The notes below the pieces were generated by a model that saw nothing but the letters and a program-made list of their open reading frames with translations, had not been told where the DNA came from and made no database searches. The translations under genes and the position numbers were made by a program. A stretch of 64,000 nt of DNA from Owenia fusiformis. Lineage: Eukaryota; Annelida; Polychaeta; Sabellida; Oweniidae. Where the stretch lies: the NCBI GenBank assembly GCA_903813345.2, contig CAIIXF020000008.1:34992867-35056866 (forward strand), read 5' to 3'. Positions 1,547 through 55,900 of the stretch are shown here, piece by piece. Every line of letters begins with the position of its first letter. The stretch's first letter is position 1.

Positions 1547-1735
1547 TGGAGAGGCGACGAACACGCCTTCACCCAAGATGAGAAGCATGGCCCAACCCCA
1601 CGGCTCAGACCCAAATCCTATCCTAAAAAGATCAGACGTTCCAAAAACCATAACAAACATAAACCCAACATTATTAAGATAGGATTCAACAATGTCCAAA
1701 AGTTAGGGATAAGTAAACAACATGAACTGGTAAAA

Positions 1736-4700: not shown

Positions 4701-5152
4701 ACTCGATAAACCAGAAAAAGTCACTTACAGTATATAGTAATATTAAAAGAAACACACTTATGGAAAAATACCTTAAAACTGACTTTGACTTCTATGCTCA
4801 AAAACTTAAATTTAAGGCAAGATCAGGATGCTTTGGTCTCGCCATTGATCTTGAGAGATGGGGTATAAGTGATGGAACGTGTTCTTTTTGTAATATGAGC
4901 TGTAAAGAAACTCCTGAACATCGATTTTTTACCTGCCCAAAGTTTAAAGAGGAAAGGTTTATATTTTATAATAGCATTGAGAATAGACTTCCACACATTT
5001 ATAATTATTTTAAGACATGCATTCCCAATAATGGTTTAGAATGGGTGCTTGGGGATGCGGCCTATGCTATCTTGGGTCAAGAACAAGGTTATATTTTTGA
5101 TGCATGCTCAAAGTATTTTATCAAAAACATATATGTAGCACCAACAAGTTAA
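1736..5152 (+). CDS. LINE ORF2: APE endonuclease and reverse transcriptase
   Basis: This frame encodes 1138 residues from its first ATG. The same frame is open back to 1547, and the start of the endonuclease fold (IKIGFNNVQ) lies upstream of that ATG, so it is not the biological start. Endonuclease motifs visible are AETNF, LLGDFN and SDHSFF. The RT palm carries FLDMTKAFD, GLKQGCCLSP and the catalytic FADD at about residues 728-731. A C-terminal Cys/His cluster (CSFCNMSCKETPEH) follows. The product nicks target DNA and copies its own RNA. No frameshift interrupts the ORF2 frame, so the copy is fairly young. Confidence 0.9.
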   Translation: MLDSEKFDVLAVAETNFSEVNSISIINNNYKWYPKNRVNNLGGGIGFFIRNDVTVTNDNVLDSGIDDLERFWIQVKVNDSALNIGVTYYPVDGKNKDLCEKMTLELIENVSKLENDGIPTLLLGDFNGRIERLRNNVPSPNGDFVEILAESTGMEFLNLSPKCTGQITWAKNQMFSCIDYALANGNFLDNFKSMLIDENHDRVSLGSDHSFFIIEFLINRRQRNNRKCYDNHVTFTKWDITDNTDWSSFQKSLSDQFSDWDISKFQGINDVWETWKDKITKAALTSIGRKKVSSDQRSFWNDEIKELIQNRKTACRFYRYWARAKTSDPNIVSEMWDLYICRKQQVQEKIKELHVQSHIKTIVKNASKKSKSSKSFWKTLKMFNAKCDYPIQIKDPEDNSNIITDPKLVSKALRDYWGSVGLKNRNPLFKENSNEHIIEKLEKETVFSNDAMTDFIFDQDDIQNSIKTLSNGKACGTDQIPNEFLKNGGMLLIHTLNDIFTKVRLLETMPDEWKYGLLKPLHKNGDTEDLNNYRGITINSNVYKLFTALLERKIMFFCEEKNLFGDLQGAFRSNLRLENHIFALKGLCSIRKNKRKKTFLAFLDMTKAFDVIDRDLLFMKLWEKGIQGKTWRLLRESYKDVKNKVLFGKSNGDNFDNELMKNLNFENDTPITGNNPESDWYSAPTGLKQGCCLSPMLFSFIMTELIEMLHSENTGIPFNNENVPALLFADDIVLLAESEGELNKMLQIANKFSLKWGVKYSPKKSKVMVIGKRINKEKIWHLGDLQLTEVQNYKYLGVYFDRTLKDTYHIDAFLKPKAKRMQGMLCSTLSKHCNAKRISFGDTIYNSMFVPAILHGCSTFVLNKSNCKTLATFQYKIGKSLLQLKCNPAKEALFGDLGWRPICNVIEKRKIDYFIYLKSSLKAGLHKNIFNYMFEDFKRGNTATWSYFSSIKDILTNHGLDDVIYREDTDWYSSYLEISNDLLRNTFFDSINQKKSLTVYSNIKRNTLMEKYLKTDFDFYAQKLKFKARSGCFGLAIDLERWGISDGTCSFCNMSCKETPEHRFFTCPKFKEERFIFYNSIENRLPHIYNYFKTCIPNNGLEWVLGDAAYAILGQEQGYIFDACSKYFIKNIYVAPTS

Positions 5153-10900: not shown

Positions 10901-13900
10901 TGGTATTGTTGTTTTTGTTTTTCAGCAAGTTAACACAAGTCCCGCTCATGAACCAGTGACCAATAACAGCAATAGTGATGTCATAGGGGAAGAGTTACAG
11001 AACAAAATTGAAGAAAATGCAAGACTTCATAAGCAAGTAAGCAAATAAAAGTTTTTATGGTTCCTTTATTTAAATACAAGTATAATTACAGTTACCAAGA
11101 TCGGGGCTTGAACTAATGGTTCATAATGCCAATTTACCCAGGTGCTCTCAGAACCTTAGCTCAACCCCTGACCACATCTTCGCATGCTCGGTCTTCACTG
11201 CGACTGATGGGAGCCGAGTGAACAAAGATGCCCTGACCAAGTATCAGAAAAAGTTCTCCTAAACGTCAATTTCCACAAGATTTATTGGATCAGTTTTAAG
11301 AAAATCTTTTTGAGTTTTGATAATTTTACAATTGAAAATCTGTCCAATAAAAGAAAATATCTGCCCCAGAGAAGAAGACTAAAATTAAACAGTTAAACAG
11401 TTTTTACTTGCATCTAGTATTGTATTGTATTTTGTTTACCACCAATGAAGGTGAGCAATACCTCTTGGGTATGTCCCGTATATATACGGTCGTAATTTAC
11501 GTAATTAACATGGAAGATAGACCCAGAAACCCCTCCTTGAAGGAGCCCTGTGTTCTTTTATGTGCACTTATACATAGACATATAAGTACACACCACAGCC
11601 TTTTTGTACGAGTTGCGGACCACTCAGTCAAACACCCTGAAGTACTTCACGCAAACAAGCAAATTTAGTCTTGCCTGAACCGGGGATAAGTCTATTTATG
11701 AGTCATCTGAGCTTTTGCCCATTTTTGAGCAAAATGAAAATAGAATTACAAATAATGAAATAAAAAATATATAAATGTAATTTTGTATACATTGAAGTAA
11801 AAGGATTTTATTTGAAGGTATATGAAGCTGAACAGAAACACAGTCAGACAGTATTCCAACTGCAAGACAGATTAGACGTACTAGAAAGGGAGAAAAATCA
11901 ACATGAGCAAATACTCAACAATGCAGTCTCAAAGAACAAAAACCAAATTGAGAAATTACAGAATGAAAAGGCCTTACTGGAGGTAAGTTGTTATTTCTAT
12001 GTTGTTATGTTGTAATTTCTATGTTGTTTTATTGTAATTTCTTTGTTGTGATTTGGGGGTGAATTAGAATTACCATCGCATGAGTTGAATTACCACTTAT
12101 TAAGAAATTACCCTCACATATTATAAAATTAACAGACAATTGTCGCCTTAAAAATTCTTGTTTCGTACAATTGCATTGTCAATAATAAAATTACCATTTT
12201 GGAAGATTACTGCCTCATACAATGGAATTACCAAATTAGAACAGAGAATTACCATTACAACATAATATTCTCTATCAATTATCGCATTGTCCAATAAAAT
12301 AACCGCCTTGAAAAATACATGTAGGTTTACCAATTCATATTCATAACCAATTCTCTTTTGGAAGTAATGGGTGGTCCTGAAAAGGACCGTGTATTTGGTT
12401 TGTCCTTGACAGGACGTTTGGCCCTGAAAAGGGCCATTTGGTGTTTCTGGTTGTTGTGTCTTCTACTCATGCATATCAACGTCATCATCTTCATCGCTGA
12501 TGATCTCATAATCCGAGTCATCATCATCAGTATTGGTGAAGATGGGCAATGTTTGAGCTTTGGCCTTGAGTTCCTCCACTTTGGCAGCCTGCATCATAGC
12601 ATACTCGTACATCATGCACTTCAGTCCCCTCATGGCCGACAAGTCCAGGCGGATCTTGTATCGGAAGGACTGTTTCCCTCTCTTGGCAGCACGATCATAA
12701 CGAACTTGCAACTGGCGGACCTTGTTGTCAATTAATAGCAGTTGGTCACATGACTTGGTGAACTTTCTGTACTTGATTTCAATCTCGTTCAGGATGAAAC
12801 CGTCATCAATGGGGATGCCATGTGTCTTCTCCAGTTCTGTGAAATTGTAGTATGTTGGTTGCTCTTGGGTGGTCTCCATTGTTGTGTTGGGTTAAGCTGT
12901 TGTTAGACTGAGATGTTCGCTGTGTGATAGAATACTTGAATAATGATTTCTCTCAGAATCATCTTTGTATTTATAGCAATTATTCCATGACATCTGTCAG
13001 GATGTCCAGTGTCAACACTTGCCAATATTCAGTTGACATTTTCCTGTCAAAAAATAAAATTCTGCAATGGCAGGAATTAAAGATAAAATCAAATGTATGC
13101 CACTACTAATCACCTTTAATCTCTCTAATTTACACCTTGGAAGGAATTAGAAATTCCAGTTTATTGAACCATTCAACATTCATATGCACCTAGCTGTTGT
13201 GTTTACTTAGAAACTTACATGCTAATAATGTCTACTGACTTGTATTACAGGTATTTTTTAACTTTGATTGAAATTTTGATTTATTACTCTAAGTAAGAAT
13301 GTAAATAAAGGTTATGGTGGATTATGTCTCTTGGGATTTATTAAAAATTATAATAGTCTCAGATAGACAAAGAAAACAAATATTTCCACACCTATTTCAA
13401 CTCTTAAATTGATAAATATTGCCTGCACTGTATATCATGCCCATGGGGAATACCTAAAAGAAAAATATTTAATAGTTTATTCTATGTTCGAGCATGGGCT
13501 TTCAATTCGATAAAAGTAAACAAAAAAGACCAATAAGGAAGAGGTATCAAAATGTTCTCTTCGAGTGTTGCATTGAAAGTAATTATTCAAGAACACACTC
13601 CAATAAAAATACAATTGAAAGCCCATGGTTCGAGCAATGAATAACTGTAGCAACTTCAAGCATTTTGTATTCTGTGAAATTAATTTTTTTTTTATCAAAC
13701 ATGAAATAATAACTGAAATTAATATTTGCTTTATTAAAGGCAAGGAAAGGAGGGAATTTGAAGTGAGCCTGAAGTGACCTATATATATCACTTCATAAGC
13801 CATTGAAAAAGAAAGTTAAACATATCAGGACCGTAGCCAGGGGGAGTTCGATGGGTTCGACCAAACCCCCATGACCAAAAAATCGTTCAAAATCATGCAG

Positions 13901-16900
13901 TTTTTCACCATTCTGAGCACTTTTTAAGTGATTTTGGCCATTTTTGGACCAAAATTGTCACAAGTGAACCCCCCCTGGAATTTTTCAAAAAGTGAACCCC
14001 CTTTGGCAAATCCTGGCTACGGGCCTGCATATAATAGTTTAATAACAACCCAACCTGGAATGTTTTCCATGGTCTAATCCAATTGAGCTTTTATGCAAAA
14101 ACAGTTATTTAGATGCAAACTTTATTAACTCTTTGCAGTCCAAGTCCAGGCCCGAAGCCAGCTTTTGCCAAGGGGGGTTCACTATCAGAAAAAGTCAGCC
14201 TAAATTTGGCCCAAAATCACATGAAAATGCTTAGAATCCAAAAAAAATGCATGATTTTGAAAGACTTTGAAAAAATGCAATCAAAGTTAAGAATATCTAT
14301 AATGCAACACTGTTGACATTAAGCAATGTCTAAGCAATATACAACAGCTAGGTGCTTATGAATGTTAAATGGTTCAATTAATTAAAATTTCTAGGATGTC
14401 AATTAAAGAGATTAAAAGTGATTAGTGGTGGCATACATTTGATCTTATCTTTGATATCTGTCATGTCAGAATTTATTTTTTGACAGGAAAATGTCAACTG
14501 AATATTGACAAGTGTTGACACTGGACATCCTGACAGATGTCATGGAATAATTGCTATAAATACGAAGATGTTTCAGAGAGAAATCATTATTCAAGTATTC
14601 TATCACACAGCGAACATCTCAGTCTAACAACAGCTTAACCCAATACAACAATGGAGTCCACTCAAGAGCATCCAACATACTACAATTTCACAGAACTGGA
14701 GAAGACACATGGCGTCCCCATTGATGACGATTTCATCCTCAACGAGATTGAAATCCAGTACAGAAAGTTCACCAAGTCATGTGACCAACTGCTATTGATT
14801 GACAACAAGGTTCGCCAGTTGCAAGTTCGTTATGATCGTGCTGCCAAGAGAGGGAAACAGTCCTTCCGATACAAGATCCGCCTGGACTTATCCGCCATGA
14901 GGGGACTGAAGTGCATGATGTACGAGTACGCCATGATGCAGGCTGCCAAAGTGGAGGAACTCAAGGCCAAAGCTCAAACATTGCCCATCTTCACCAATAC
15001 TGATGATGATGACTCGGAGTATGAGATCATCAGCGATGAAGATGATGACGTTGATATGCATGAGTAGAAGACACAACAACCAGAAACACCAAACGGCCCT
15101 TTTCAGGGTCAAACGTCCTATCAAGGACAAACTAAATAAACGGTCCTTTTCAGGACCATCCATTACTTCCAAAAGAGAATTGGTTATGAATAACTCATGA
15201 ATTGGTGATCCTTTCTTCTGAATGGTAATTTGATTGCATGAGGCAGCAATTTTATAAGTGGTAATTACTACCGTATGTTACAGTAAAGTAATTTCATTAT
15301 ATGAAATGTCAATTTCATAAAGAGGTAAATCTATTTTTGAGATGGTAATTCTATTGAGATTTTGTCATGTTGAGGTGTGTACATTAGGAATTTTTGCAAT
15401 TTTGAAAAGTAGACTATTGAATATTCTATTTATTCGAACATTCTGAAGAATTATCAACCCTCAATTAATAATCTAGGTACACTATAATGCACCTTTCATG
15501 CAAACAGGAAAGATGTACCCCATTTGTGGAATGAGTTATAAATGGTTATCTGAAGATATAACATGGTCATGAAATTTCATCAAATTAGAAAATGGCCGAA
15601 AGAACACACTGATCTTAATGCCTTCTTAATTAATTAAAGAAAATGAATAACATCAAATAATTTGTTGTTTATATCTATAGGTTCAACTTCAGAAGCAAGA
15701 TAAAGATGTCAAAGATGCCAAAACAAGGGCTGAGCAAGCGTAAGTCAAAATTCTGATTATTTTGGTCAAGCAAAATCATGGATTGGAATGTTTTTCTCTG
15801 AGGAATATACAAGTATTAATGTGAATCGCATTTATCACAGACAAACAAGAATGTGTAAGTGCCAGCATTTGTTGTTGTATTCACATTACATGTACTTGGA
15901 ACATTTGTACTCAGATGTAGGCCTGTATGCCGTATCCAGAGGGAATGGGGGCGGGTTTCGAGTGACGTTAGAAAGTAGTAAATGATGGTTGCAATTTTTT
16001 TATTGATAACATAATCATTTAAAAAGAATGAAATGAAAAGATCAATCCAGTGAATCATGGTTTTGATGCCATTCCTACCACTTCAGAGCAGAAATAGGAT
16101 CAACTTATTGTCAACTAAATCTCTCAAGCTTTAGAGCCCTTTAGATAAAGAGAGACTCTGATAAATCAGAATGATCAAATTTGTTCACAATTATTGCTGC
16201 CTGAAAAGTATGACATCATAATCTAGTCAATGTACCCTGGTTTCCTGGTTACCAAAAGGTTTGTTAAATTGAATAATGCCCTTATATTATACATGGCAGG
16301 CCTGTAACCTGATTTTGCCAATGGGGTTCACTATTCAACAAATTCCAGGGAGGTCACATTTGACCATTTTGGCCCAAAACCACTCAAAAAGTGCACAGAA
16401 TGGTGGAAAACTGTATGATTTTGAAATTCTTTTTAGCCAGGGTGGGGTTCACTCGTACACCCTGAACCCCCCTCCCCCTCCCTAACTACAGGCCTTTATA
16501 AGCAGTGTCCTTTATTGTTTCATTGATTGAAGGATTGCATTTTTTTACTTTCAGGGAGTCTGAGTTGCACAAAATACAAAATGAACTAACTTCAAAGTTG
16601 GATGAGGCTACAAAAGTAATTAAAGATAAAATAGCATTTAATGATACTAGTAAGTTAAAGTGTTGTGTTTGAAATAAATAAAACACGCTAAAATACGCTA
16701 AAACAATATGTAAAAAAGACAAACCATGCATATGTGATGTAGATAAAAGTGAAATTGAACAACTGATTAGTGATTAATTATGTTTAGATTCCACACAAAA
16801 TTGCATCTTCTTTGAGCTTGGTTATTGTATGTTTTTTGTTTTATTATTGAAACTTAAAAATAAAGTATTATAAATTAATGATATTTTTTGAAAATTAAAT

Positions 16901-31900: not shown

Positions 31901-34900
31901 AAAATATGAGGAGAATAGTCGCAGAGTTGCTGTTTTATTTCACCACCCTGTATTACATGACTTATGAAGTGACCAATATGACTAAAAGCTCTACTTGAAA
32001 AATGTTTCCATTTTTGTATGGAATATCCTATAAATGTAAAATATTATGTTTATATTATATCATACATAATCGTGATATATAAAATCATACAAGGAGAATG
32101 TACATGAATGTACATGGGTGGCAGTTGTTAACCTATGAGTGGCCATCTTTTTTCTGGCAGGAATTGAGTAGTTTTTGACAAATTTTGTCATTTTAATTCA
32201 TGGAATATATAAGCGCAAATGCCAAAGGGAAAGGACCAAAAACTCTAAAGAACGCTATAAAGAAAAGAAAACTTGAAGTGTGAACCTGTCATGAAACGTT
32301 AAAAGAAATAATGTCTAACACCCTCCTTCACCCCTCCAACTGAGAACCAATAAGTTAATCAGATTTTCTTCATATTCATACACATGTTAGGGGTACTGAG
32401 TTCTACAGTTGAATAACATTTAGGGGCCATCTTGTTTTCTGGCAGTCATATTTGAGATTTTTCCAACAATCCTTTCATTGCCTTTCCACCTTACCCAGTC
32501 ATCAACTTTTTTTCATAATAAAGATAACTTCATATTTACTTTACTAGGTGGTGTGATTTCATTCACTTCATGTGCCTTGTGTAACCTATAGATAACATTG
32601 CCACTTTAAACTATGTACTTCACTATCGATCTGATATTAATCAAGAGGATAAAGGAAGAGGTGCGATTATTGGCAAATATCCCTATGGTCAAAATGAATC
32701 ATTCTTAGGTGTAACATGAAGAATAAAATGTCATATAATACTTTGGAAAATATTAAAGTGCTCGGGCACACATAAGCTGAGATAGGGATCATTTCGTTCA
32801 GTAAGGTTGTATTGACTTACATGGGGTTGTGCACCATTGACTTAACATGAGAATATCAGCAGATCCCAATAGAGGCCATTGGTTTCCATTGATTATCACA
32901 GAAATACCAAAAATACACTATGACCTGAATCGATTGCAAACTTAATAATTTCACAATATGACACAAATGGTTTATCTCATCAAATGTGCAAATATGAAGT
33001 TTGCAATCGATTCAGGTCATACTTAAAATTAAAAGATTATACATTTTTTCATCATTTTTTTCCCCTACAAAATGGCTATAGAAAAATGCTCCAAAAACAA
33101 CTTTTACACTTATCAAATATCATACAACTTTGTAAAACCAAAGATTATACTATTATATTTCATTATGTAGTAACATATTTGAATAAGATGCAGGGATGCG
33201 TAGGATGCAAATGGATTTTGACAGACACAAAAATACTTCCTGGTTTGGAATCTATGCCTCTACACTTCATGATTGAATTATGACCCTAATAAGTGGCCTA
33301 TACATCAATGCAGTGCTGAATATAGGTCAACAAGATACTAGTGTGCATATAAATGTAATAATTGAAGCAGAATACTCATTTTGAAAAATCAGATGAATTA
33401 TTTTTTTCCCATGGGGAGATCACAATGGAGGGTGTATGAGGTCCTTTTCATTCATATATTCATACAATGAACTTCTTAAATTTACTGATATCTTATTGAG
33501 AAGCCACAGAGAGAAATATTGAATAATCCACATTTCTTTTTGTCCAGTTGAATTATCATCAAAATGCTAAAGGGAACATTGACCAGTGAAAGAGCACTGT
33601 ACAAAATCCCTTAAATGAATCATCAACATGTAATATTCAGTACATTGCTAATAATATTTGTTTATTTGTATTTGTTTGATTGTACAAGTAACAATTTTTC
33701 CATATAGAAATGGGTTCTAGTTCTAGTTCTAGTTCTAGCTGATTTTGAAAAAGTTCCTAGAATTTTGTTTGTATATCACGAATCTTGCTAATATGACCTA
33801 GTCCATTCAGTGTACCAAAACACGACAACATTCATAGTAATGTCATGATTACAAAAGGAATGCCACCAAGCCATAGTAATGCATGTTCAGTCGTACCTTA
33901 TCATAGTAATTCAAATGATTATTCAGATAACCAAAATGTAGCAGCTACCTTTTACTTGTACTCAAGATATGAGTACACAGTTTACCACATATTTGAGCAG
34001 TCAATCTCTTTATGAGGTAGCAATCTTAATACTTTTATGATAGTGTCAGTTCTAAGCAATGTAGATACAATGCATGACATGATTATGTAGTCTTACAAAA
34101 ATAATTCATTACATCTTGTAGGACTTGTATGTGGTGCCATTTCTTTTCATTAATTTCCATACTCAAAGTGTTTTTTTGATGCTTGAGCAATCTCTCAAAA
34201 TATAAATTTGTCGTTGATTTATTTTTATGATTATTCAATTGAAAAAGTAGAATTTTGCATCTTAACAACAGCACTTAATTTTCTAGTTTATATCCCTCCA
34301 ATGCATGTATAGTTCGAATCAATTGAAAATGTGGTTAGATCATTGAAATGAATTGCTTTATAAAAATGTAAACAAATATATAGAATACACCATATATACA
34401 TTCAACTTCTTCTAAGTGCTATACGAAAAACATAAAAATGAGTTAACAAAATTACCATGACTCATACAAATCAACCATCATAACATTAAATGAATCATTT
34501 GAAAATATGGATATTAAATATAGCAGTCCTCTTGTGAAAAGTATGTAAGTCAAAATGATTTACATAAAACAAAGATAAAAACATAATTTTGATAACTTGA
34601 GCTCATACAAATGCATATAGTCTTAAAATGTGCACTGACTATTTTATAGCCTCTTATAGCGATCAAATTTATCAAAAGGTTAATTGTTTTTCAAACTAGT
34701 GAACCAAAATACTTTTTGGTTCTTTTGCTTGACAATTATAAATGTTTAATATTTACACTTTTAAGAACATTAAATATGATGACTATTTATATGGCAGTTT
34801 ATTTAAGAAAATGCAAACTATTAATAAATACATAACTTGCAGATCATTTATGATCTTGAATTGTGTTATTTATAATTAAATTTGAAGGTTTCAATATACT

Positions 34901-37900
34901 TTTGTTTATTTTAAGGATGACTGCTTCTGACCAAGCTGTCTTATGGAAACTAGGAATTACACCTGCTTATGGGTACATTCAGAGTAGAGCAGGAAAGACT
35001 GCCAAAGAAAGGGTCCTCGGAACATCAACCCAGCCATGCAAAAGAACAATAGTGAACATTGTCGGAGAGCCAAGACAAGGAAAGACCAGTCTGAAAAAAC
35101 TATTAACACAATTACCATTTGATCCTGATGAGGCAAGCACTGTCTCCATTGAACAAGACTTGGTTGAAACATGCACTGTAGATTCAAAATGGACAATACT
35201 AGCCAACACCCATAACACTGCTGAGGAGTATAAGGAAATATTGAATGAACATGTCTATAAGCATTTGAGGTCAATGGACTGTGGAGTGTCAGAGAAAGTG
35301 AACTGCCTTCTGAAAGTTGCTTCATTGTTTGTCTTAGTTGTTTCATTGGTGTATTACTTTATCCACTTTAGTGACACATGGAATGAATTTCCTATTTTTC
35401 CTCTTGCAACTCTTTGCTCTTGCCTCATTGGATGGGTACTCCTTGGCATCAAAGATGGTCCGATTCTTGTAACCAGCATGTTGACAGGAATCATTTTCCT
35501 TGATTCTGTGATTTTACAACAGGTTGCCTTCCTACCTGACCAAGATGTTCTCTCATCTCAATGGAGTGTCATGCTAGCTTTACTACCAAATTTCATATTT
35601 GGTGCACTTACACCAACATTATTAAAGAGCTGTGGATCTCTTGTTTGTGCTGGGATTGCTGCAATGCTATTGTTAGCATCTCCCATAAGAGATACAACTA
35701 TGCATACCTGGCATTCTCTGATTGGCTTAGTTCTTCTTCTGTTTCGTTGGTTCATTTCAAAATGGCTGCCCATCAAGTGCCAGATATTGATATATGCTAT
35801 TCTTGGGCTTGGATTTTTCCATTTGAATGATAATCCAATCCCTATATTTTGTAGTTTCCTGGTATATGGAAGTTTTTGGTTCACCATACAACATCTTGGA
35901 AAAGCAGGTCAGATGAATATTGGACATAGATTATGGAAATTAGGAATAGCAAATCCTTATCGTAGATGGGTACTGTACTCAATTGGTATGGGAATGGGAT
36001 TTCTCTTTACCAAATACATCAAGTGGAATTATGAAAGGACAAGTCTCATTCATTGTGTGCTTTCATTCATGCTGTTGCTACTCATTGAAGGTTGCTATAT
36101 TTACACAGATACATATGCCAGCAGTAATGATTTGATGTCTTCGGGAGATGTCAGTAAGACAAGGATGTTTTTGGCATCAAAGCAAAGAAATGATATGAAG
36201 TTGGTAGTTCGTGACTTTGCTGGGCATAAGCTGTACCACTCTACACATCATGTGTTTATGACAGAACATGCCATCTATCTGATTGTGTTCAAATTGACAG
36301 ATGCTCAAAATGACAAAGAAAAGATGATGCAAGATATTATCTATTGGTTCAATTCTGTTATGTTCCACACCAATCATAATGAGCCTTGTATCATATTGGT
36401 AGGAACTCACCGTGATCAACAATCACTCTCTGATGAGATCATTCTGGAGCTGAGTGATCATATTGAGAAGAGGTTACCACCAGAATACTTGAAACTCTTG
36501 TTCTGTAACAAGTCTAGAGAACACTTCATATTCCCAGTTGAGAATTCCTTAAGACAATCTGATGACATTGACCACGTGGCTTTACATGAAACTATCCAAG
36601 GTGCCTCAACAAGTAGACCATTCAGGAAGCATGCATGGCCAGTAAGATATTACGCCTTCTGGAAACTCTTGGAGGAATTAAGAAATGGGCGGGAAAATGA
36701 TCATAATATAGACACTCGAAATATCATTGAATTGGAAACTCTTTATGAGAAATGCAAAGAAACTGAGTGCCAAATTGCAAACAAAGATCAGTTTAAAAGC
36801 CTGCTGAGATTTTTCCATGACATGGGAGAAATTGTGTATAAAGATATCCCAGGTTCTGATGGGTTGATAGTAATTGATCCAAGAGTACTCATTACATTGA
36901 TGACAGTTATTATCACCCCTCATAAGGTATGTGAAGTTAAGCCAGCTTTGGTTGCAGCTTATAAGACACTTACTTCTAGGGGTTTTGCATCCGAAAGTCT
37001 ACTTTTGCATCTGATCGCAAAAAAGTTTCCTGAAATGCCATGTAGTACAATGAAGCAGTTCCTGTCTCTATTAGATGAACTGAACTTGATATGTTCTATT
37101 TCACCTATGCCAAATCACAGTGAAACGGTTTACATTGTTCCACAACTTCTGCCAATAACTGACTTGGGTCACCAGGTATGGGTCCCAAAGCCCGTATCTC
37201 AGAACCATGAGTACTATATTGACTTCCAGCACTTTTATCCAGAGTCAATCTTCACAAGGTTGCTCTGTGTTTGTCTCAGGCATCAACTAGACTGCAATTA
37301 TTTGTCACCAATCAAAGATGCAACAATATACAGACACCAGGCATGGTGCACATATGGGACAACACATGCATACCACTTGTGTCTTAGCAAGGACATGCGC
37401 TGTAAATGTATCAAAGTGACAATACGATGTGATGACAGTGAATCTCCCCTAAGGGTCTTAGAGTTCCTGCACCATAACCTGACTGCCATAACAAATGGTG
37501 ATTTCCAGAAAGTGAAATACACAATTGGTCCTGCTTGTCCTGCCTGTAATGGAGAAAATGGGGAAACTGATGTAAGTATCTAAAATTGTCTCCAGATAAG
37601 AAAGTAGTATTTGGCCATATTTATATTTTTCTAAAATTTACTTTGTGAAATGACAGCATATACAGTAGTAACAAAAAGATGTAGAACATTTCATCTATTT
37701 TGATGTATAAATTGTGTTACAGGTGCATGTCCTTTCTCTTGCATCAGGGAATGATGTTGTCAGTGGAGCTTATAACCAGTTCTGGTGTCACGGGGTTCTG
37801 ATAACCATCAATGAAGGAAAGGTATGTGAGATATATATTGTTTGTCACATCAAACCTAAGTAGATTGTCTTCAGTTTAATCAAAACGATCATTGTATCTG

Positions 37901-40900
37901 TAAAGGCATGATATTGACCTAGATAGAAAACACCTTGGCAAAGCTTAAGTGTAATTTATGGTAATAGGAAGATTAGATAGGAAATATTTGTCCAATCAGA
38001 ATAGAACCTTGGAATAAAGAGGAAATGAAAATCCAAAATTCCATAAAGGGCCATAAATTTTCACTCACCAATCTGTCGAGTGTTATTTTTATTGTATTGT
38101 ATTTTCACAGATATACAGGGTATCCGGAAAGTAAAGATACAAATGATCTAATTTCATTAGATTTACCTGTTGTGAGATGAAATTGCTACAGATTGTAGAA
38201 TGACATTGTAACAATTTTTCCTGCCAATGTCATGACAAATTGTTTCAAAATAAAAAAGTTATGGTTGTTATGGTAGCAGGAGTTGCGGGTATGTGGAGCA
38301 GCGTCACAATTATGTTTTATAATTCTTTTTTCCTGTTCATATCATTTTGACACTCCGTCGTCTGTTGCTGTTATGCATCAAATTATGTACCACAACAGCA
38401 AAAGGACTGTAATATAATGTAATCATTTGACATTACTACTGTTATCCAGTATTATGTATTTTCCACCTTTATGTAAACATTCTTGGTGCATTTCGACTGG
38501 AGATTCAAGACCTGACAAAACCTTTGCTGTCAGTCTCTAAGATTGCTGATAACATTGGCTTCCATCCGAGTCTCATTTTTATGTTCAACTTCTCACAAAT
38601 TGCTTTTAACATATTCATTAATGTAGAAGTCCAACGGGATATTATCAGGGAAATATGGGCCAAAAAATATGTACAAAAAGGTTAATGTCAAGACATTCAA
38701 TTGTAAGATTTGTTTTCTTTGCTTTGTGCATTGGAGCATTGACTGTGGAGGTGGACTATTGACTTTCCTATTAATCCAGGGACCCTTTTTCTAAGCACTT
38801 ATATACTCTTTTTCATTGATTATACTTTACTTTACTTTGATTTTACATTACATAGTTCTGATATGTATCAATGATATCGTTATACTAAAGAGAATACTAT
38901 GGCAGCAAGAATACAATATTGAAAAAACAAAAAACTGATAAGAAATACAATAATAAACACTATTTCAAATGGCTATATTTTAGCAATTTATCACAATTTA
39001 TCGATATCCTGGAACTGCTCCGCGTACCCCTCACCACCGTAACCATGACAACCGTAACTTTAACACATTTAGACTATATGTTATAAAAGTTGGTAGATGT
39101 ATTGTAATGTAGTTCCTCTACAATCTGTAGTGATTTCATTACAAAAAAACTAAATCTCTTAAAATTAGAGTATTTGTATCTTTACTTTCCGGACACCCTG
39201 TATATCATGTAAATCTTGTACATGTTTTTTGATATATTGAAATCAGCATTCAAACAATTTTCCTGTAGTTAATATGGAGTTAAAGTTGATATGGACTTTT
39301 TCTCATGCAAAAGACAATGATGAAAAAATTAGAAAATGATTTATTTGTTAAATAAGGAAAGATTAATTTATTTCAATACTTTTAGATTAAGCCAGATGGT
39401 GAAACAGGTCAAATACCATCCAGTCCAATAAGAGAATCTAGAGGAGGCTCTTTCAATGGTAGCCCACTTCAGACCCTTGATGATGATACTCGCATCGAAA
39501 ATTTACCTCACTCCCTATACAGGGAGATTCGTGATACTCTTAGAATACCATCTATTAGAGGAAGAGATTACAAAGGGCTTGCAGGTAAAAGAAACTCTTA
39601 TTGCACAAATTATCACAAAGTAAGGAATGTAACTAATTTTTATAGAGATCTAGTAGTAGTTGAGTATCTGATTTACAGGGTGACCCAAAAATGCAACCCT
39701 CCATTTCTTCAATATTTTTCTTAAATGGAGGTAAATTGCTCTGAGATTTAGCACACAAGGACTTCATTCAATGTTGGATGAATGGAGGGTTGCATTTTTT
39801 GGGTCACCCTGTAAGTACTACTTTTTGTAGACTTTCCATTCACTGACTCTATTTGGTTTTTCATATTATCTTTAAATTTAAAAATTGTACAATGACCAGA
39901 ACTCATCAGAATTTTAAGGTGATGATTTGTGTTCAAATGTGTTTAAAATAACAATTGAACCATGATTTCAGGTCTACTGGGCAAGACATTCCGTGAGGTT
40001 TCATTACTTGAACTGGAACCCAATCCCTGCGATGCCCTTTTTAAAGACTGGATAACATATGATGATGCTACACTTGGACACCTCATCAATCATATGAAAA
40101 CATTGGAACACTATGATATCATTTCTGCTATTGATGAGTATAAGTCACAAATGTAAAAAAGTACTTGATATACATGAACTTACCTTATACTCAAGGGTAC
40201 CTACTTAAGTCCCCTGTATATGACAAGTGTTGACTAATAAGCATGCCTGTTTACCTTTGAATTGAACTATTTTTTTTAATGAATTTCAATATGTTATCAG
40301 ATTGATTAATTCCTATCTGCAAAATGTATGACAGCTAGCATGAATTCTTTGGGTAAAAATATGGTAATTTTGAAAAACTTGAATTAGTGCCAATGACTTG
40401 ACATGATATAATATTTCATTCATTGCTTCGGTGTACATATTGTAATGCAGTAATCTGAATACCTCCCCCCCCATCTTGGTTATTTTATGACTTATTTTTA
40501 TCAGTATTGCCAAATTTCATGCACTCACAAACACTCAAATGACACACGGAAGTTGATATAACATACCTAGTGAATAAAGTGAAGTGTTATTCTGCTCATG
40601 CAGCATGAATAAATATACTTGAAAAACATGATAAGTCAAGAAGTATTTTAGGGGTTAATCATCAATGATATAGATAATATCGATTAAAGATTAAATAAAC
40701 CATCAGTTATGTTCATGTAAACAAAACATATACAATAAGCAAACTTTGGAAACTACTACTACTACAGTATGTAGAAAAGTAGAACTAATTACATTAGAAT
40801 ACCTTACCCAAAGCCCTGGGGATAACAGTTGTAACTATTAAGCTGTTGATTTGGGATAACCCACAGCAATCTTTAAGGTAAAATTAAAATGGTAAAATAG

Positions 40901-46900: not shown

Positions 46901-49900
46901 TTTAAGTTAATTTTACAATGGTTTCCCATCTCCAAATAGGATGATCTTTCAAAATGTTGAGTTTTTGTTTTACTTGAATACAAAATCATCATTTACCCCT
47001 TCCCCTAATGAAAGTAATTTAATGCTTTGACCACCCTTATAACATCTTTCACTTTTCAGACTAGCATTACTCCTTGTACCGACAAAAGGCCGTCATCTCT
47101 AGCGATGAAATTTTGTTGACTGTTTTTTAGATCTATAATTCTAAAATCGTGATTATTGCTTTACAGCTAGGCCGACTTGACTCTGGACCAAGAGGTAGAA
47201 GTTCCACGTCTGATATGGACAGTCGAGAACAACTCATCAAAGACCATTTTACACAAAGAATACAACAACTCACCTCTCAGCTTCAAGTTGCAGATAGTAA
47301 AGCTGTTAATTTTTACGCAGAGGTAAGATGTTGATTTGAGGTTTACACGGGGGTAAAGCAGACCCGATGATGCAATGAGCTTGCTCGGCGGTATCATGAC
47401 TGTGTAACGGGTCTTGATGTATAAGTGAGCTCGTCGGTAGGTTCAAACAACACGGATGCTCAAAGCATGTGCTCATGGTATCATCGTGGCTTAACACCCG
47501 TGTTTACTGTTAATGCCTGTTTTACAATAACTATCTGTACTAAAGTAACACCCATATTTTACAACAGGAAGTTGAAAACGCATTACACGCTGCTAAACGA
47601 GGAAAAGCACCAGGAATGGATCGTATACCAATGGAGGTTTTATTATCGGTACAGTCTAAGAGATTTTTCACGTCGTTCTTCAACTACTGTTTCAAATCTA
47701 GGATTACTCCATCAATGTGGAATAATTGCGTTAAAATACCCATCTCAAAAGGCTCAAGCACCATACCGAATGAACCGCTGACATATCGAGGGATTACTTT
47801 ATCGTCAGCTGTGTGCAAATTATACTGCTGGATTTTAAACGACAGATTGTCATCGTTCTGGCTCGAACATGGTTTAATAGACGACGAACAAAATGGTTTT
47901 ATGAGCGGCAAAAGTTGCATTGATCACATATATAGTTTGTCTTCTATTGTCGAAAATCGTATCAAGGGGGGCCAAAGCACGTTTATTTGCTACGTTGACG
48001 CGGAGAAGGCCTACGACAGGGTCGATCGAACGCTCTTATGGTGTAAACTTGCCCAACTTGGAGTTAACATCAACGGTGACTATATGGGTGCTCTTCGCGC
48101 TTTATATCGGGAAGTGAAGAGCTGCATCAATATCAATGGATTTTTCACGGATTATTTTCCTATTAACTATGGTTTAAAACAGGGGTGCCTCACATCTTGC
48201 CTTATGTTCAATATATATGTGAATGATTTATCCGACACCATTAAGTCATTGCACAAGGGTGTTATTGTTAACGGCGAGGAAATATCAATACTTCTATATG
48301 CCGACGATGTTGCGTTAATATCTAGCACAGAAGATGGAATTCAACGTATGCTTGATGAACTAAACATTTGGTGTAACAAATGGCGTCTTTCCGTAAATAT
48401 TAAGAAAACGAACATTGTGCACTATCGACCGAGGCGTATTCCGAGAACTAATACCGTTTTTCGGTATATGGCCCACCAGATTACTGTTGTTGACCGGTAT
48501 AAATACCTTGGTCTTTGGTTGAATGAGTTCATGGACTATTCCGAAATGGCCAAGTCTGTAGCAGCGGCAGGTAGCAGGGCACTAGGTTTACTAATAGCAA
48601 AGTACAAGTCTATGGGTGGCATACCATACGAATGCTATACTCAGTTGTATAATAGTTTAGTACGTCCTATTTTAGAATACGGCTCTGAGGTATGGGGCCT
48701 AAAAGAACATTCCTCAATTAATGCAGTTTTCCACCGTGCATGTCGAGTTTTCCTGGGACTTGGTAAATACGCACCTAATGCAGCAGTATCTGCCGAGATG
48801 GGTTGGACTGCACCCTACGTACGCCAAATTACGGTTGCCGTCAAATACCGGGACAGATGTCTTTCTTTGAACACGGATCGAATAACAAGACGCATTTTCG
48901 ATTGGAATTTAACAGTGGGTGTATCACGTGCTAAGGCGAACTGGTTTTTTAACCTTAACAGGATCTTGACAGCGGATCTTGATTTGGGGTTCGATTCTCC
49001 ATTGGAATCTGTCCTGCACACGCTGAAAACCATTCGATTAAATGCATGGAGAGCCAATTTGTGGAATGACAACCGCCGTGATCCAAACCAACGGAACAAA
49101 CTTAGAACTTATAGAACGTTTAAAGACAACTGCGACTGCGAGCCCTATCTTAAATCTAGTCTATCACTATTGGATAGAAGGGCATTTGCATCTTTACGCT
49201 GTGGAGTCGCCCCAATCCGAATTGAAACGGGCAGATATGAACGCCTGGCTGTCCAAGATAGACATTGTGTGATTTGCAATGAAGAGGTCCCACTCGTAGA
49301 GGATGAACAGCATGTTATAATGGACTGTAGTGAATATGATGTGTTAAGGCGTGATATGTTGCATAAAGTGACATCTAAATTAACATTATTTCCAGAAAAT
49401 CACGAAGAACAATTTAAAATACTTATGAGTGAGCCTGGAATCTACCTATACGTTGCCAGGGCCTGTGGCCAAATGCTCAGGACCAGGGAGCGGGTTCTAT
49501 ATAGATAAGACAGGTGTCTTATAGGCCGATGTCGGCCCGGGGTTCGTTTTAATTGATATTTTATGTATACTTTTACCCAAGACACTATAATAAATTTTAC
49601 AATTACAATTACAATAATTACTAATAGACAATACTGCGATCATTAAACTTTTTAGTTTCCATTTGCATTCAAACGTCTTTGAATGCAACTGGTCCACAGT
49701 TACAGGGTGGTAAATAAAACAATGAAAGATGTATGTGGAACAGCTGTGTATGTGGAACAGCTTTGTAAGTGGAACAACTCTGTAAGTGGAACAGCTTTGT
49801 AAATGGAATCTTTGTAAGTTGAACAGATTTGTAAGTGGAACAGCTCTGTTAAGTGGAACACTTTCAAGTTATGTGAAATATCCTCCAATTTGAAAAGCAT

Positions 49901-52900
49901 TCTTGTTGGGTACCATAGGCTTAGCATTTACATAGGTTTTACAAAGTTTATCAATAACTTATTTCTTTAATAAGATGGTGTTAAATTCACATTTCAATAT
50001 GGAATTAAATTATTATAATAAAATTATATAAAAAGGGCCTTTTCTTTCTTGTGACAGTGACAAACAGGGAAAGGGGAGGGATGAAATTTTGTTCGATTAT
50101 TAAAAGGATGAGAAGAAGCATAGTAAAGCAGTTGCAGATACAATGTTTCTACTACATAGATTATGGGTAAGATAAAATTCTGTAGTGTAAACTGTCAAGG
50201 GCTTTGCGATCCTGTAAAACGAGCAGATGTCTTTAATTACTTGAAGCAAAAACGCATAGATATATTATGTTTACAGGATATACATTCTTCAAAACAATCT
50301 GAAATGAAATTTGAACAAGATTGGGGAAGCAAGGCCTTTATCAGTTCATACAAAAGTAACAGCAGAGGGGTAGGCATTTTTATTAGGGAAAATCTCACAT
50401 ATAAAGTGTACAATAGTGATATTGATGCAAATGGTAATTTTGTAATTCTAGATATTCAGATAGAAGATAGGAGATTCTCATTGGTCTCACTTTATGGACC
50501 AAATACTGACTCGCCTGTCTTTTATACTGATCTCAAGGCAAGACTCGAAATTATTGAGAATGCTTCTATATTAGTTATGGGAGATTGGAATCTAGTTCTA
50601 GACACTGACCTGGATACTTTCAATTATAAGCACATTAATAATCCGAATTCAAGAAAAAAGGTTCTAGAGCTCTGTGAACAATTAGAATTATTTGACATTT
50701 GGAGAGAATTGAATCCGGAAGTGAAAAAATTCACTTGGCTGAGAAGGAAACCGCGACAAATGGCAAGACTTGACTTTATACTTGGAACAGAAGATTTCAT
50801 TAATTTAACACATATATGTGATATATCATCTAGTTATCGGTCGGATCATAGTCCGATTCTTTTGATTATAAATAATGATTTGCCAGAAAGAGGGAATGGG
50901 TTTTGGAAATTCAATGTGTCTTTACTTAGGGATCCGGTGTATGTTACCATTGTAAAAAATTCCATTGAGAACATTAAAAATCAATACGAAATAAGAATCC
51001 CTGAGAATGACCAAATAGATTTTGACCTCTCAATAAATGATCAACTGTTTTTTGAGATGCTTAAACTAGAGATAAGAAGTCAAACTATTAAATATTCATC
51101 AGAAAAGAAAAAATTAAAAGAAAAGGTTCAACGTGATCTTGAAAATAAGGTCTTGGTTATAGAAAGGGAAATAGAAAATATTATTAATTCAGGTGATGCT
51201 CAGGATGACGATCAGAGAATCATTTTAGAAAAAAGATATGAAAATTTGGATAGCGTCAAACAAGAAATTAAAGAATATAGAGATATTTATGTAAAAGGTC
51301 TTATGACAAGGGCCCGAGTCGAGTGGTACGAATCAGGAGAAAGAGCTACGAAATATTTTAGTAGTCTCGAAAAGCGAAATTTTCTAAATAAACTTATATG
51401 CCAAGTAGAGGTAGATGGAGAACTTATTACTGATCCAAAAAAAATACTTCTGGAACAGAAAAAATTTTATGAACTCCTTTACAGCAGAAAAGTAAATTGT
51501 GCTGATGAAAATATAGACCTCTTCCTTAATGATAATAATATCAAATCACTAAACGAAGAACAAAAACAGTCTTGTGAGGGTATTTTAACGGAAAAAGAAT
51601 TAATCTTTGAATTAAAAAATGCAAAAAATGGTAAATCCCCTGGATCAGACGGCTTTTCTGTAGACTTTTATAAATTCTTCTATAGGGATATTGGTAAGTA
51701 CCTACTCAAATCTCTAAACGCGGCTTATACTTTAGGTGAACTATCAATCACACAGAAGCAAGGCGTTATTACTTGTTTACCAAAATTAAACAAAATTAGA
51801 AAATACTTTAAGAACTGGCGACCGATATCTTTATTGAATGCGGACTATAAACTTCTCTCATCAGCTTTAGCAACAAGGATGAAATCAGTTTTGCCACATA
51901 TAATTTCCGTGGAACAGAAAGCATATTTAACGGGTCGAGAGATGGCTGAAAATACAAGACTTGTGTATGACGTTATGGACTATCTTAATAGAAACGAGCA
52001 AAAGGGTCTTTTACTTTTAGCAGATTTTGAGAAAGCCTTCGACAGTATCGAATGGGTCTACTTAGAAAAATGTCTAAAAAAATTCAATTTTGGAGATAGC
52101 TTCTTGAAATGGTTTAAGATTTTATACAATGGAAGCGAAAGTTGCGTAATAAACAACGGTTTCTTTTCAAGTTTTTTCAAATTAAAGAGAGGTTGCAGGC
52201 AGGGAGATTCGCTCTCTTGCTACGCATTCATCTTAGCTCTAGAGCCTTTATGTTCAAAAATTAAAAAAGATGTAGAAGTTAAAGGGGTCAAAATATTCGA
52301 TAAAGAGATAAAGGTTGGCATGTATGCAGATGATACGTTTATCTTCCTAGATGGAACTCCGTCTTCCTTGAGACATTGTATGTACATTTTTGATAAGTTT
52401 CATGAAACATCAGGGTTAAAACTTAATAAAGAGAAAACATCAGCAATATGGTTAGGAAGTAAAAAAAACTCAGAAAAAATGTGTGAAGACATTCCACTCA
52501 CATGGGAATCTAAGTTTAGGTTACTCGGGTTGAATTTAACATCAGATCTTCAAAATATTGAATCCATTAATTTTGAAAATAAAATTCAGGAAATGCAAAC
52601 TGTAATAAGTAGATATAAAAAAAGAAACTTATCAATACTAGGAAAAATAACGGTTCTTAAATCATTTGTTTTGCCTAAAGTAGTACATTTATTTCTAGTG
52701 TTACCCAAATTGTCATGTGCAAATCATAAAAGAATAAAACAACTGTTTACTTCTTTTATATGGAATTCCACAGTAGCAAAAGTAAGCTTCTCACAATTAG
52801 TTCAAAATGTTGAAGATGGAGGTTTGAGAATGATTGAACCAACGCTCTTTGAACAATCCCTCAAACTTACATGGATGCAAAAACTTTTTAGAGATGGCTC

Positions 52901-55900
52901 TTGGCAAGAAACTGCTTTAAAAATCATCAATGTAAGATCAAGAAACGAGCTTTTTATGTATGATTCAAAATCAATTCAAAAAATTGAGGAAAAAATTTCG
53001 AATAATTTCTGGAGAGATTTTGTTCATGTTCTGAGAATTTACACACAACAGAAAGAAAAAGAAGCTGAACATAATACTAAACTGAGAGCTGAACAAGCTA
53101 TGTGTAATACATGGGGGAAACATACCAAAAATCAAAATGTTCAATATATACTGCAAAATACAAAGGTTAACAATGAAGTAATTGTACTACAAGATGTATT
53201 TCATAATTCAAAAAGACTTCTAACGCTTTTAGAATTCAATGACAAATTCCACAGTAATATTAATTTTTTAGACTATTTGAGTCTAAAAAACACTATTCCA
53301 AAATCTTGGCTAAGAGACGTCATGGAGAATAATCAGAATATCACTGATTATGAAAGAAATAAAGCACACGTACAAAAGTTCCTTACTCAGTCAAAGATTA
53401 GTAAAATAATATACTGGGAATTTGTTCAGAATTTAGAAAAGAATTCAAAATATATAGAAGGATGGAATAAAGATCTGAATTTGTCACTCAATCAAAATGA
53501 TTGGAAGAAGATAAATAAACTTAACAAACTGAGTAACTATGAACCTAAATTATCATCCTTCACTTATAAAGTCCTTCACAGATTTTTAGCAACTAATACA
53601 TACCTAAAAATGTGTGGACTCGTAGAGTCAAACATTTGCACTTTTTGTAAAGCAAATCCTGAAACGATTTGCCATCTTCTGTATGAATGTACGATTGTAA
53701 GTGCCGTATTAAATGACATTAAACAATGGCTTCCTTTAGAGCTCACATTGCTATGCACTAAACAAAGTGTATTGATAGGACCTGAGAGTATAAATGAGAA
53801 GACAATCATCTTAAATAATATGCTATGTATTTTTAAAAGGTATGTTTATTTGTGCAAATATTCTATGCTAAAACCAACACTTAAAGGTTTTATAAGTAAT
53901 GTGAAGGAATATTTTATTATGGACAAACGGGTTGGCAGAGGCGATAAGTGGAAAATCATGGAAACAAAATTAAACAAATGAAACTGATGATTTTTTCCTT
54001 TAAATAAAAAAATGCCAATGGTATAACGTCTCTTAAGACGAAATATTTAACCACTGTACTGTATTGTAAAATTGTTAAATGTAGGTTTACCATGTAACTG
54101 TACTGTAATTGTTTTTTGCAATTGCTTTAACATGCTTATTCTTTGAAATAAAAAAATTATAAAAAAAAAAAAAAAAAATTATTATAATTACTTTGTGCTA
54201 TAATTTAGATATCACCATTATTATAATCATGGGGATAATATTTGCAAATCTACCCACAGGACAAAAAGCTATTTTAATGTCTAACTTGAAGCAGTATCTA
54301 AAGCTCTAATTTTTCTTCCAGTGTCGAGCCTTGCACAAAAGATTGAATATTGAAGAGAAGTCTAAGAAGAAATTACAGGAAGAAGCTAATGCTCACAGTC
54401 AGACCATCATTCAACTGAAGGTAAGTGTGAATCAACATGGGTAGGTAAAAGCGCATAATTTTGAGATAGGTGTGTAGTTTTTGAAGCAGTATGTGTATAG
54501 AATTTGACATAGATGTGTATAATTTAAAGGCAGAATCTGATCTATAGGGGGTGACAAAATTACAAGCAACATGTATAATTGACCTACCAATCTATTCCTT
54601 ACACTATCAAATACAATATCTCCGAAAAGATTCACAATATGTTATAAATTGGTGAAGTTATTAATGATTCAAAGTGCAAAAATGGGTCAAAAATGTTTAA
54701 ATTCTCCCAAATAATAAGAATGGTAACCATTCTTATAGAAAAATAGTACATTATTGTAAAAATCATAAATTTTCCTGGAATAAAGTATGCACTTTTGTGA
54801 TTTTTAGAAAATAGACATGACAAGGAATGACATGAGCCAAAAATATTCTAAAACTGAAACAATTTTTTGTTTAGCCTGCTCGCTATATCTGATTCTCTCT
54901 TTAAGTAGATGTTCAGTATTACATTGAAAAACCTTCAATCATTCCATACGGATCATTTGACCTCAGAAAAAAAATTTCAGTCAAGTTCTAGAATAGAACA
55001 CACAAATAATCTTGGAATTTTCTACTATTTCGTGGTCAGCTTCTTCATTCAAGTGAGCCACAATCTAGTGGCTGTTTAATCTATGTGGCTTGTAATCTCT
55101 TGGATATACTGGGGCATTTTTCATATCTATCTTAAATGCAATGTTTGGTGTACAATTGGGTTAAATTACTGAATATAGAAAAATAACACTCATTTCAATA
55201 CATATTTTGTATACATGTGTATCTCATACTTGAGTCGGTTTGGGGTAGATATCACCCAGGAATATATATCATATCTGAGGAGTGGGCAGGATATATTGTA
55301 TATGTCCCGCTCCAGACCAATTGCAGGCAGATATAATATATCCATCCCGCTCCCGGGAATTTTTCAAAGGTTAAAAAAATTTATATTTTATCTCCCCATG
55401 GTCCCTTCGGTCCCTCGGGAGATATAAAAATATTCCTCAGGATATACCCTATATCCAAAACCTCCCAGTACATAACCCTTATATATTCTGTGACTGGTAT
55501 AGTTGTCATTCTGGATATTTTAGGAGTTAAATACAACTTGACCTATTTTGTTATTAGGAGGATTTGAATCTCAAAAATATACATTTATAACTTGTATTTT
55601 TAGGATGACCTACAGACAACTACAAAGAGCTATGAGTCGCAACTTAGTATGATGAGTGAACATCTAGCCGGGATGAATGAAAAGCTGGCCAATCAGAAAG
55701 ATGAGATAGATTCTTTAAGGTTGCAACTTAACCAGAAGGTAATGGAGAGGTTGAACTAATTGGTATAGATACTGTATTTCTCACTATTTTAGCATTTTGG
55801 CTATTTTTTATATTGGTGATATTTCATCAGATATAAAAGATAAAATAATGATCTGAGAGAAATGTAATAATTCCATGAATAAATATATGCCAGATATTTT

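Follow-up and report, generated by a model that had tools for sequence, protein, structure and literature searches.

Activation of LRRK2 at membranes has been described as not completely understood (PMC6337361). Movements of the G domain are known from several related systems. In Arf, two strands are described as sliding by two residues upon GTP binding, which frees a membrane-interacting helix (PMC4635315). In a crystal of the isolated LRRK2 ROC domain the interswitch is reported to flip open (PMC12889809, a preprint), and the GTP-bound state of CtRoco is said to show switch 2 moved towards the P-loop (PMC11052575). Here we describe a gene at positions 34917..40156 of a window of 64,000 nucleotides from the annelid Owenia fusiformis (GCA_903813345.2, contig CAIIXF020000008.1, positions 34,992,867 to 35,056,866 of the forward strand; "the window" means this whole stretch). 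As read from its sequence, the gene encodes a first Roc half, about 270 hydrophobic residues, a second Roc half, COR and a death domain. LRRK2 and DAPK1 both belong to the ROCO proteins, and a Roc domain built around a membrane domain would show that the interswitch hairpin can carry membrane input.

The interrupted Roc domain and its gene

The features on which the following rests are, in window positions:

34917..37571, plus strand: exon 1, residues 1-885, with Roc half 1, the membrane domain, Roc half 2 and COR; open frame and splice donor
35064..35087, plus strand: G1/P-loop GEPRQGKT, residues 50-57; G50, R53, G55, K56, T57 and S58 are invariant in the nine family members treated below (9/9)
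35139..35141, plus strand: T75, candidate G2 threonine of switch I, invariant in 9/9 members
35301..36107, plus strand: putative membrane domain, residues 129-397, with 8-10 predicted passes; hydropathy, family-averaged topology and a protostome-deuterostome profile match
36213..36224, plus strand: G3 DFAG, residues 433-436, aligned to the DFAG of LRRK2 Roc; D433, A435 and G436 are invariant
36399..36416, plus strand: G4 VGTHRD, residues 495-500, aligned to VGTHLD of LRRK2; V495-R499 are invariant
36537..36548, plus strand: VENS, candidate G5, residues 541-544, invariant in 9/9 members
36675..37151, plus strand: COR-A, residues 587-745; Pfam PF16095 with E 1.8e-8 and 34.8 bits, just under the cut-off of 35.3
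37723..37821, plus strand: exon 2, 33 codons; splice sites, and a paralogue piece of similar length
39386..39584, plus strand: exon 3; splice sites; start of the death domain at about 39524 (Pfam Death)
39972..40156, plus strand: exon 4; stop codon at 40154-40156; end of the death domain at about 40138

The Pfam Roc profile (PF08477) matches the exon 1 product in two stretches (E 5.6e-14). Residues 35-102 and 421-569, once joined, match Roc in one stretch from profile position 3 to 119 (of 119; E 6.3e-16), while the first half alone reaches positions 3-42 with 20.5 bits (cut-off 27) and the second alone positions 49-119 with 39.6 bits. As the joined halves cover the profile, Roc is complete, with its interruption in the turn that links beta2 to beta3. 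By sequence, switch I precedes the insert and the DxxG of switch II follows it, which places the insert in the interswitch hairpin formed by beta2 and beta3. The strand names are those of the Ras fold, from which we also presume that T75 is the G2 residue and that VENS represents G5. LRRK2 structures align to residues 411-503 (beta3-G3-G4), and the LRRK2 chain runs unbroken through this hairpin. Further downstream, Pfam Death (PF00531) matches the last 168 residues (E 1.2e-8) across the junction of exons 3 and 4.

The stop-to-stop open frame at 34860-37583 comprises 907 codons, with an ATG at 34917 and a donor after 37571; joining the four exons (34917-37571, 37723-37821, 39386-39584 and 39972-40156) gives a protein of 1045 residues. 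In an alignment this ATG coincides with the starts of two relatives, P0001 and P0003. An initial annotation of this DNA had proposed one exon of 885 codons followed by three short ones, which the open frame and the splice sites bear out; the motif order that it gave was also found, with GEPRQGKT at residue 50, DFAG at 433 and VGTHRD at 495-500.

Two further observations concern the gene region. Directly before the ATG, at 34900-34916, there is a T-rich run with an acceptor-like AG, and an upstream untranslated exon is possible. Intron 2 contains an inverted repeat (38110-38301 and 39015-39206) with arms of 192 nucleotides that are 72% complementary, resembling a foldback element or a MITE.

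Relatives and the age of the architecture

A paralogue in the same genome (P0001), the closest protein among those scored in the database searches, lies about 15 Mb away; its first 923 residues map with 99.7% identity to about 19.8 Mb of chromosome C8, the chromosome that also holds the window. It follows the same plan, with an open stretch of 923 codons and then pieces for residues 919-953, 952-1029 and 1029-1057, and its COR-A match (PF16095) reaches 47.8 bits. Querying the own genome with the whole exon gave 12 matches among 20 scored candidates; the membrane domain was covered solely by the window and the paralogue. Three protein searches revealed seven further proteins in which a hydrophobic domain lies between G1 and G3: from the gastropods Babylonia, Batillaria and Nucella, the brachiopod Lingula, the hemichordate Ptychodera, and from two Branchiostoma records, B. 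lanceolatum and a B. floridae x japonicum hybrid. Together with the window protein and P0001, the membrane insert is carried by 9/9 members from five phyla (Annelida, Mollusca, Brachiopoda, Hemichordata and Chordata). These searches scored only candidates that shared words with the query (7999, 7999 and 3564), so that absence from vertebrates, arthropods and nematodes does not follow. These searches did not return the protein of the window itself, which may therefore be unannotated or annotated at a different length.

The Roc profile (PF08477) matches all nine members, and G1, T75, G3, VGTHR and VENS are kept in every one of them. GTP binding is expected in most members because the G motifs are conserved, the G4 of P0001 excepted. 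Within the membrane domain, P256 and G270 are invariant in 9/9 members, and conserved glycines lie within the bundle. The initial annotation had interpreted the gene as a ROCO protein split by a polytopic-type domain and ending in a death domain, and had suggested looking for the same architecture in invertebrate proteins. It is found in the paralogue and in the seven proteins from four other phyla, so that this interpretation now has the support of these relatives as well as of the sequence itself.

Some gene models of this family may be in error, which could be taken to favour an artefact, be it an assembly fusion, a wrong gene model or a retained intron: in the Nucella model P0005 the membrane domain seems to lack its end, and P0003, from Batillaria, carries a SAP-domain tail unlike the other members, which we take for a gene-model fusion. 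However, the frame of 907 codons in the window is uninterrupted, the insert is homologous among members and shows codon-position bias, and the same order recurs in P0001, 15 Mb distant, and in one protein from each of seven other organisms. We consider the chance of an artefact negligible. An assembly fusion, which the initial annotation had itself named as a reason to abandon its reading, is contradicted by the layout shared with the paralogue and the relatives. It is also unlikely that the insert is spliced out, because it is conserved and biased by codon position: between the two Owenia paralogues, codon positions 1/2/3 of the membrane domain differ by 52/39/67% (275 codons), which we regard as a sign of constraint at the protein level.

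In a comparison of membrane-domain profiles with hhalign, five of the six protostome rows (the truncated P0005 was left out) against all three deuterostome rows gave a probability of 95.7%, E 1e-8 and a score of 65.9 over 223 columns. The highest score among 60 column shuffles was 19.5 and that of the reversed profile was 11.9. A gastropod profile compared with the deuterostome profile reached 68%. Judged by these profiles, the membrane domain is homologous across the protostome-deuterostome divide, and because the two sides match in this way the bilaterian ancestor probably already had the architecture. In a tree of Roc and COR without the insert, which was midpoint-rooted on 13 rows with relations inside both groups partly resolved and two rows flagged as long, the nine membrane members lie on one side of a branch with 100/99 support. 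Within the membrane group the same family splits into lophotrochozoans (97/97) and deuterostomes (87/89). We are highly confident that the original observation is confirmed and that the split architecture is both real and old, and relatives with the same layout suggest that membrane-built GTP switches form an ancient class not described before. In titles and abstract openings, subscription papers lying mostly outside this coverage, no membrane-split Roc domain was described; a prior description is possible.

Five further matches (P0008-P0012) were treated as non-membrane proteins. Four of these (P0008-P0011) were compared, P0012 being dropped because it has no G3 by the pattern used. Their G1-G3 gap is 178-195 residues and hydrophobic windows are found in the insert of 0/4; P0008, P0010 and P0011 are Acropora (coral) proteins with NACHT, Death and Roc, and COR-A is listed for P0008 and P0009. 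The general rule given in the initial annotation, that ROCO G motifs lie within about 200 residues, thus needs qualifying, as these four have a long hydrophilic insert between G1 and G3. The membrane domain could have replaced such a hydrophilic insert or grown within it, a direction that we infer. As to other sources, no convincing relative of the membrane domain was found in Pfam, NCBIfam or PDB sequences, and a PDB profile search returned 0 matches at E up to 10. YlaH, DUF2231, CrgA, GtrA and STING_TM were rejected as its family, since they appeared only at E 0.068 or worse and with single members. An origin in, or spread through, prokaryotes or viruses found no support: scans of genome contigs and viral contigs gave 21 and 25 pattern matches without a relative, and a phage tblastn likewise found none, one or two short patterns being a weak probe in each case.

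Hydropathy and topology of the inserted domain

Strongly hydrophobic windows were defined as non-overlapping stretches of 19 residues with a Kyte-Doolittle mean of at least 1.6, and the insert was counted from G1+40 to G3-10, about 31% of the protein length (share determined by hand). In the window protein 7/8 of these stretches fall in the insert, some with means above 2.0, and over the nine members 54/58 do so. The family-averaged hydropathy shows about ten humps by eye. Pass numbers come from a homemade segment topology model that was run on the family average and on single sequences with varied helix penalty. In the ten-pass model of the window protein, K+R make up 12/69 inside-loop residues versus 3/48 outside residues; since the model itself uses charge, this pattern is consistent with the topology and not independent of it.

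Several results weigh against the reading, set out below, of a ROCO-type switch built into a membrane. Counts of hydrophobic windows alone stay within whole-protein shuffles for several members (P0004: 5 versus a shuffle mean of 3.9); the evidence is therefore the clustering and the conservation of the segments and not their count. With the most lenient penalty, the family average gives ten passes with both ends inside a score of 26.9 and nine passes 26.7, and stricter helix penalties favour 9, 8 and then 3 passes. For single sequences under a strong helix penalty the best answers of the model have 3-7 passes, an odd number in 8/9 and an inside N-terminal side in 6/9. Between the Owenia paralogues, protein identity is 34% in the membrane domain versus 52-82% elsewhere (52% from G3 to COR), and smaller profiles of this domain are weak (annelid-gastropod probability 4.5%, annelid-deuterostome 21.5%). 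COR-A (PF16095), placed directly after Roc, matches 8/9 members, not P0007. Death matches 7/9, not P0003 or P0007; the window is counted here through exons 3-4, its row in the nine-member Pfam scan covering the exon 1 product without exons 2-4, next to six other rows, of which P0004 has 20.8 bits versus a curated cut-off of 22.6. Finally, the G4 motif of the paralogue P0001 is THRN instead of THRD, and this exchange of the last D for N may change its guanine specificity.

Both the shuffle results and the several segments that peak at a mean hydropathy of just 1.4-1.8 would agree with buried helices of a soluble domain. Yet seven windows reach the threshold in the insert of the window protein, some of them with means above 2.0, and the concentration in the insert seen over the nine members also speaks against it. 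We regard this explanation as very improbable. For the membrane domain we take 8-10 passes as a working answer. That the number should be even is not a measurement but follows from the G domain having to be reunited. Of the roughly ten transmembrane segments in the initial annotation, the hydrophobic insert of many segments stands, the model preferring 10, 9, 8 or 3 passes on the family average as the helix penalty rises. Similarly, one folded G domain would require what the initial annotation proposed, an even pass number and a cytosolic position for both halves, but on the family average ten and nine passes score almost alike, and the best single-sequence answers are odd in 8/9.

Elsewhere in the window, three long frames on the plus strand (1547-5152, 47544-49508 and 50160-53981) match RVT_1 and are of the non-LTR retrotransposon type, two of them also matching the endonuclease family Exo_endo_phos. 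Near-identical frames of 142 codons at 12463-12891 (minus strand) and 14639-15067 (plus strand), about 2 kb apart and in opposite orientation, form an inverted duplication of a sequence of no assigned identity.

A proposed membrane-built GTP switch and its nearest precedents

We lean towards a ROCO-type GTP switch that is built into the membrane, with interswitch movement coupling the bilayer domain to the death-domain output; such coupling appears likely, though only slightly so, and is unproved. An even number of passes would bring the chain back to the cytosol, where the two halves could form a single folded G domain, seated on the membrane domain through two linkers of about 30-36 residues each (window protein). 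A bundle fixed to the interswitch hairpin would feel or impose nucleotide-linked movement. Since the interswitch moves with the nucleotide in Arf and is able to rearrange in the Roc domain of LRRK2, a mechanical link between membrane domain and nucleotide state would follow. The bundle could then read a lipid, ligand, ion or membrane state and so alter GTP binding or the dimerisation of Roc-COR, after which the death domain would recruit death-domain partners for innate immune or cell-death signalling. We prefer the direction from membrane to switch, and a signal from the membrane to the death domain would be the simplest reading of the domain order. The suggestion in the initial annotation that the protein could gate or sense something in the bilayer and signal through its death domain likewise stands as an inference.

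Alternatively, the membrane domain could be a passive anchor that merely holds a ROCO-death protein at the membrane while nucleotide cycling is uncoupled from it. This would agree with its being less conserved than the G domain and COR, and with the four relatives that have a hydrophilic G1-G3 insert in place of the membrane domain and keep Roc. However, one helix or a lipid suffices for anchoring, which neither needs a conserved many-pass domain with invariant P256 and G270 nor gives a reason to occupy the interswitch hairpin, the moving part of the G domain. We consider a mere anchor rather unlikely. Less probable still is the reverse flow of information, in which the GTPase gates a membrane domain acting as transporter, channel or membrane-damaging effector, in principle as in FeoB. 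The same anatomy and the conserved glycines in the bundle would serve this function equally, and AP-GTPases and KAP ATPases have been described as switches of bacterial conflict systems (PMC8195603). But searches of Pfam, NCBIfam and PDB sequences gave nothing convincing among transporters, channels or pore families, and an output through the C-terminal death domain is more obvious.

Building on the membrane-coupled switch, we tentatively propose a bilaterian class of membrane receptors in which a sensing bundle is threaded through the interswitch hairpin and bilayer events directly determine the nucleotide state, with no separate GEF, followed by death-domain signalling. With this family, invertebrate innate immunity and cell death would gain a conserved class of candidate receptors, and it offers a natural construct for testing interswitch coupling.

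With the described ROCO proteins (LRRK1/2, DAPK1, MFHAS1/MASL1 and the AP-GTPases) the family shares a Roc domain with a THxD-type G4 followed by COR; the second Roc half of the window protein aligns to LRRK2 structures, and the motifs G1, G3 and G4 are intact, the last D of G4 in P0001 excepted. It differs in that Roc is split by a hydrophobic, probably polytopic domain, and no kinase, LRR or ankyrin match was obtained in Pfam. The death domain is shared with the DAPK1 group, which is described as having a protein kinase domain before Roc (PMC6337361). Such a kinase is not found among the 17 Pfam families listed for the nine members, and G1 lies at residue 49-54 in 8/9. The Acropora proteins P0008, P0010 and P0011 as well as P0009 likewise have a Roc domain with a long G1-G3 insert, but this insert is hydrophilic, and NACHT is listed for the three corals. 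Insertions within ROC, with domain lengths of up to 467 aa, are also described for brown algal ROCOs (PMC11378527), and C-terminal parts of Ectocarpus ROCOs are described as homologous to other ROCO or to transmembrane proteins (PMC4104024); the portions of these accounts that we draw on report no membrane segments inside the ROC domain.

The Arf/Arl toggle resembles our proposal in that nucleotide-driven interswitch movement is described as linked to the release of a membrane-interacting helix (PMC4635315), whereas Arf couples to an N-terminal amphipathic helix and not to an inserted bundle. Such a bundle, inside the G domain, also sets the window family apart from FeoB. There, the G domain and the membrane part are separate domains. 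Common to both is that one protein combines a G domain with a polytopic membrane part (PMC3153494).

The STAND NTPase of certain bacterial conflict systems is described as replaceable by a KAP ATPase or by an AP-GTPase (PMC8195603). Our best guess for the family, defence or cell-death signalling at the membrane, draws by analogy on these roles and on the membrane segments inside the KAP P-loop domain. According to the title of Aravind et al. (2004), KAP P-loop NTPases carry membrane segments inserted in the P-loop domain. Judged by sequence, this likeness of Kidins220/ARMS and bacterial Tmn to our family would be analogy and not membership: KAP NTPases belong to another P-loop class, published accounts give two segments for Tmn and four for Kidins220, and no KAP_NTPase match was found in the nine members (17 families listed, E up to 10). 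The same accounts tie Tmn and Kidins220 to defence or signalling. To our knowledge, the family described here would be the first in which a Ras-like G domain is split by a polytopic domain, with the KAP ATPases as a parallel in another P-loop class and, as far as the analogy carries, the nearest precedent for the principle.

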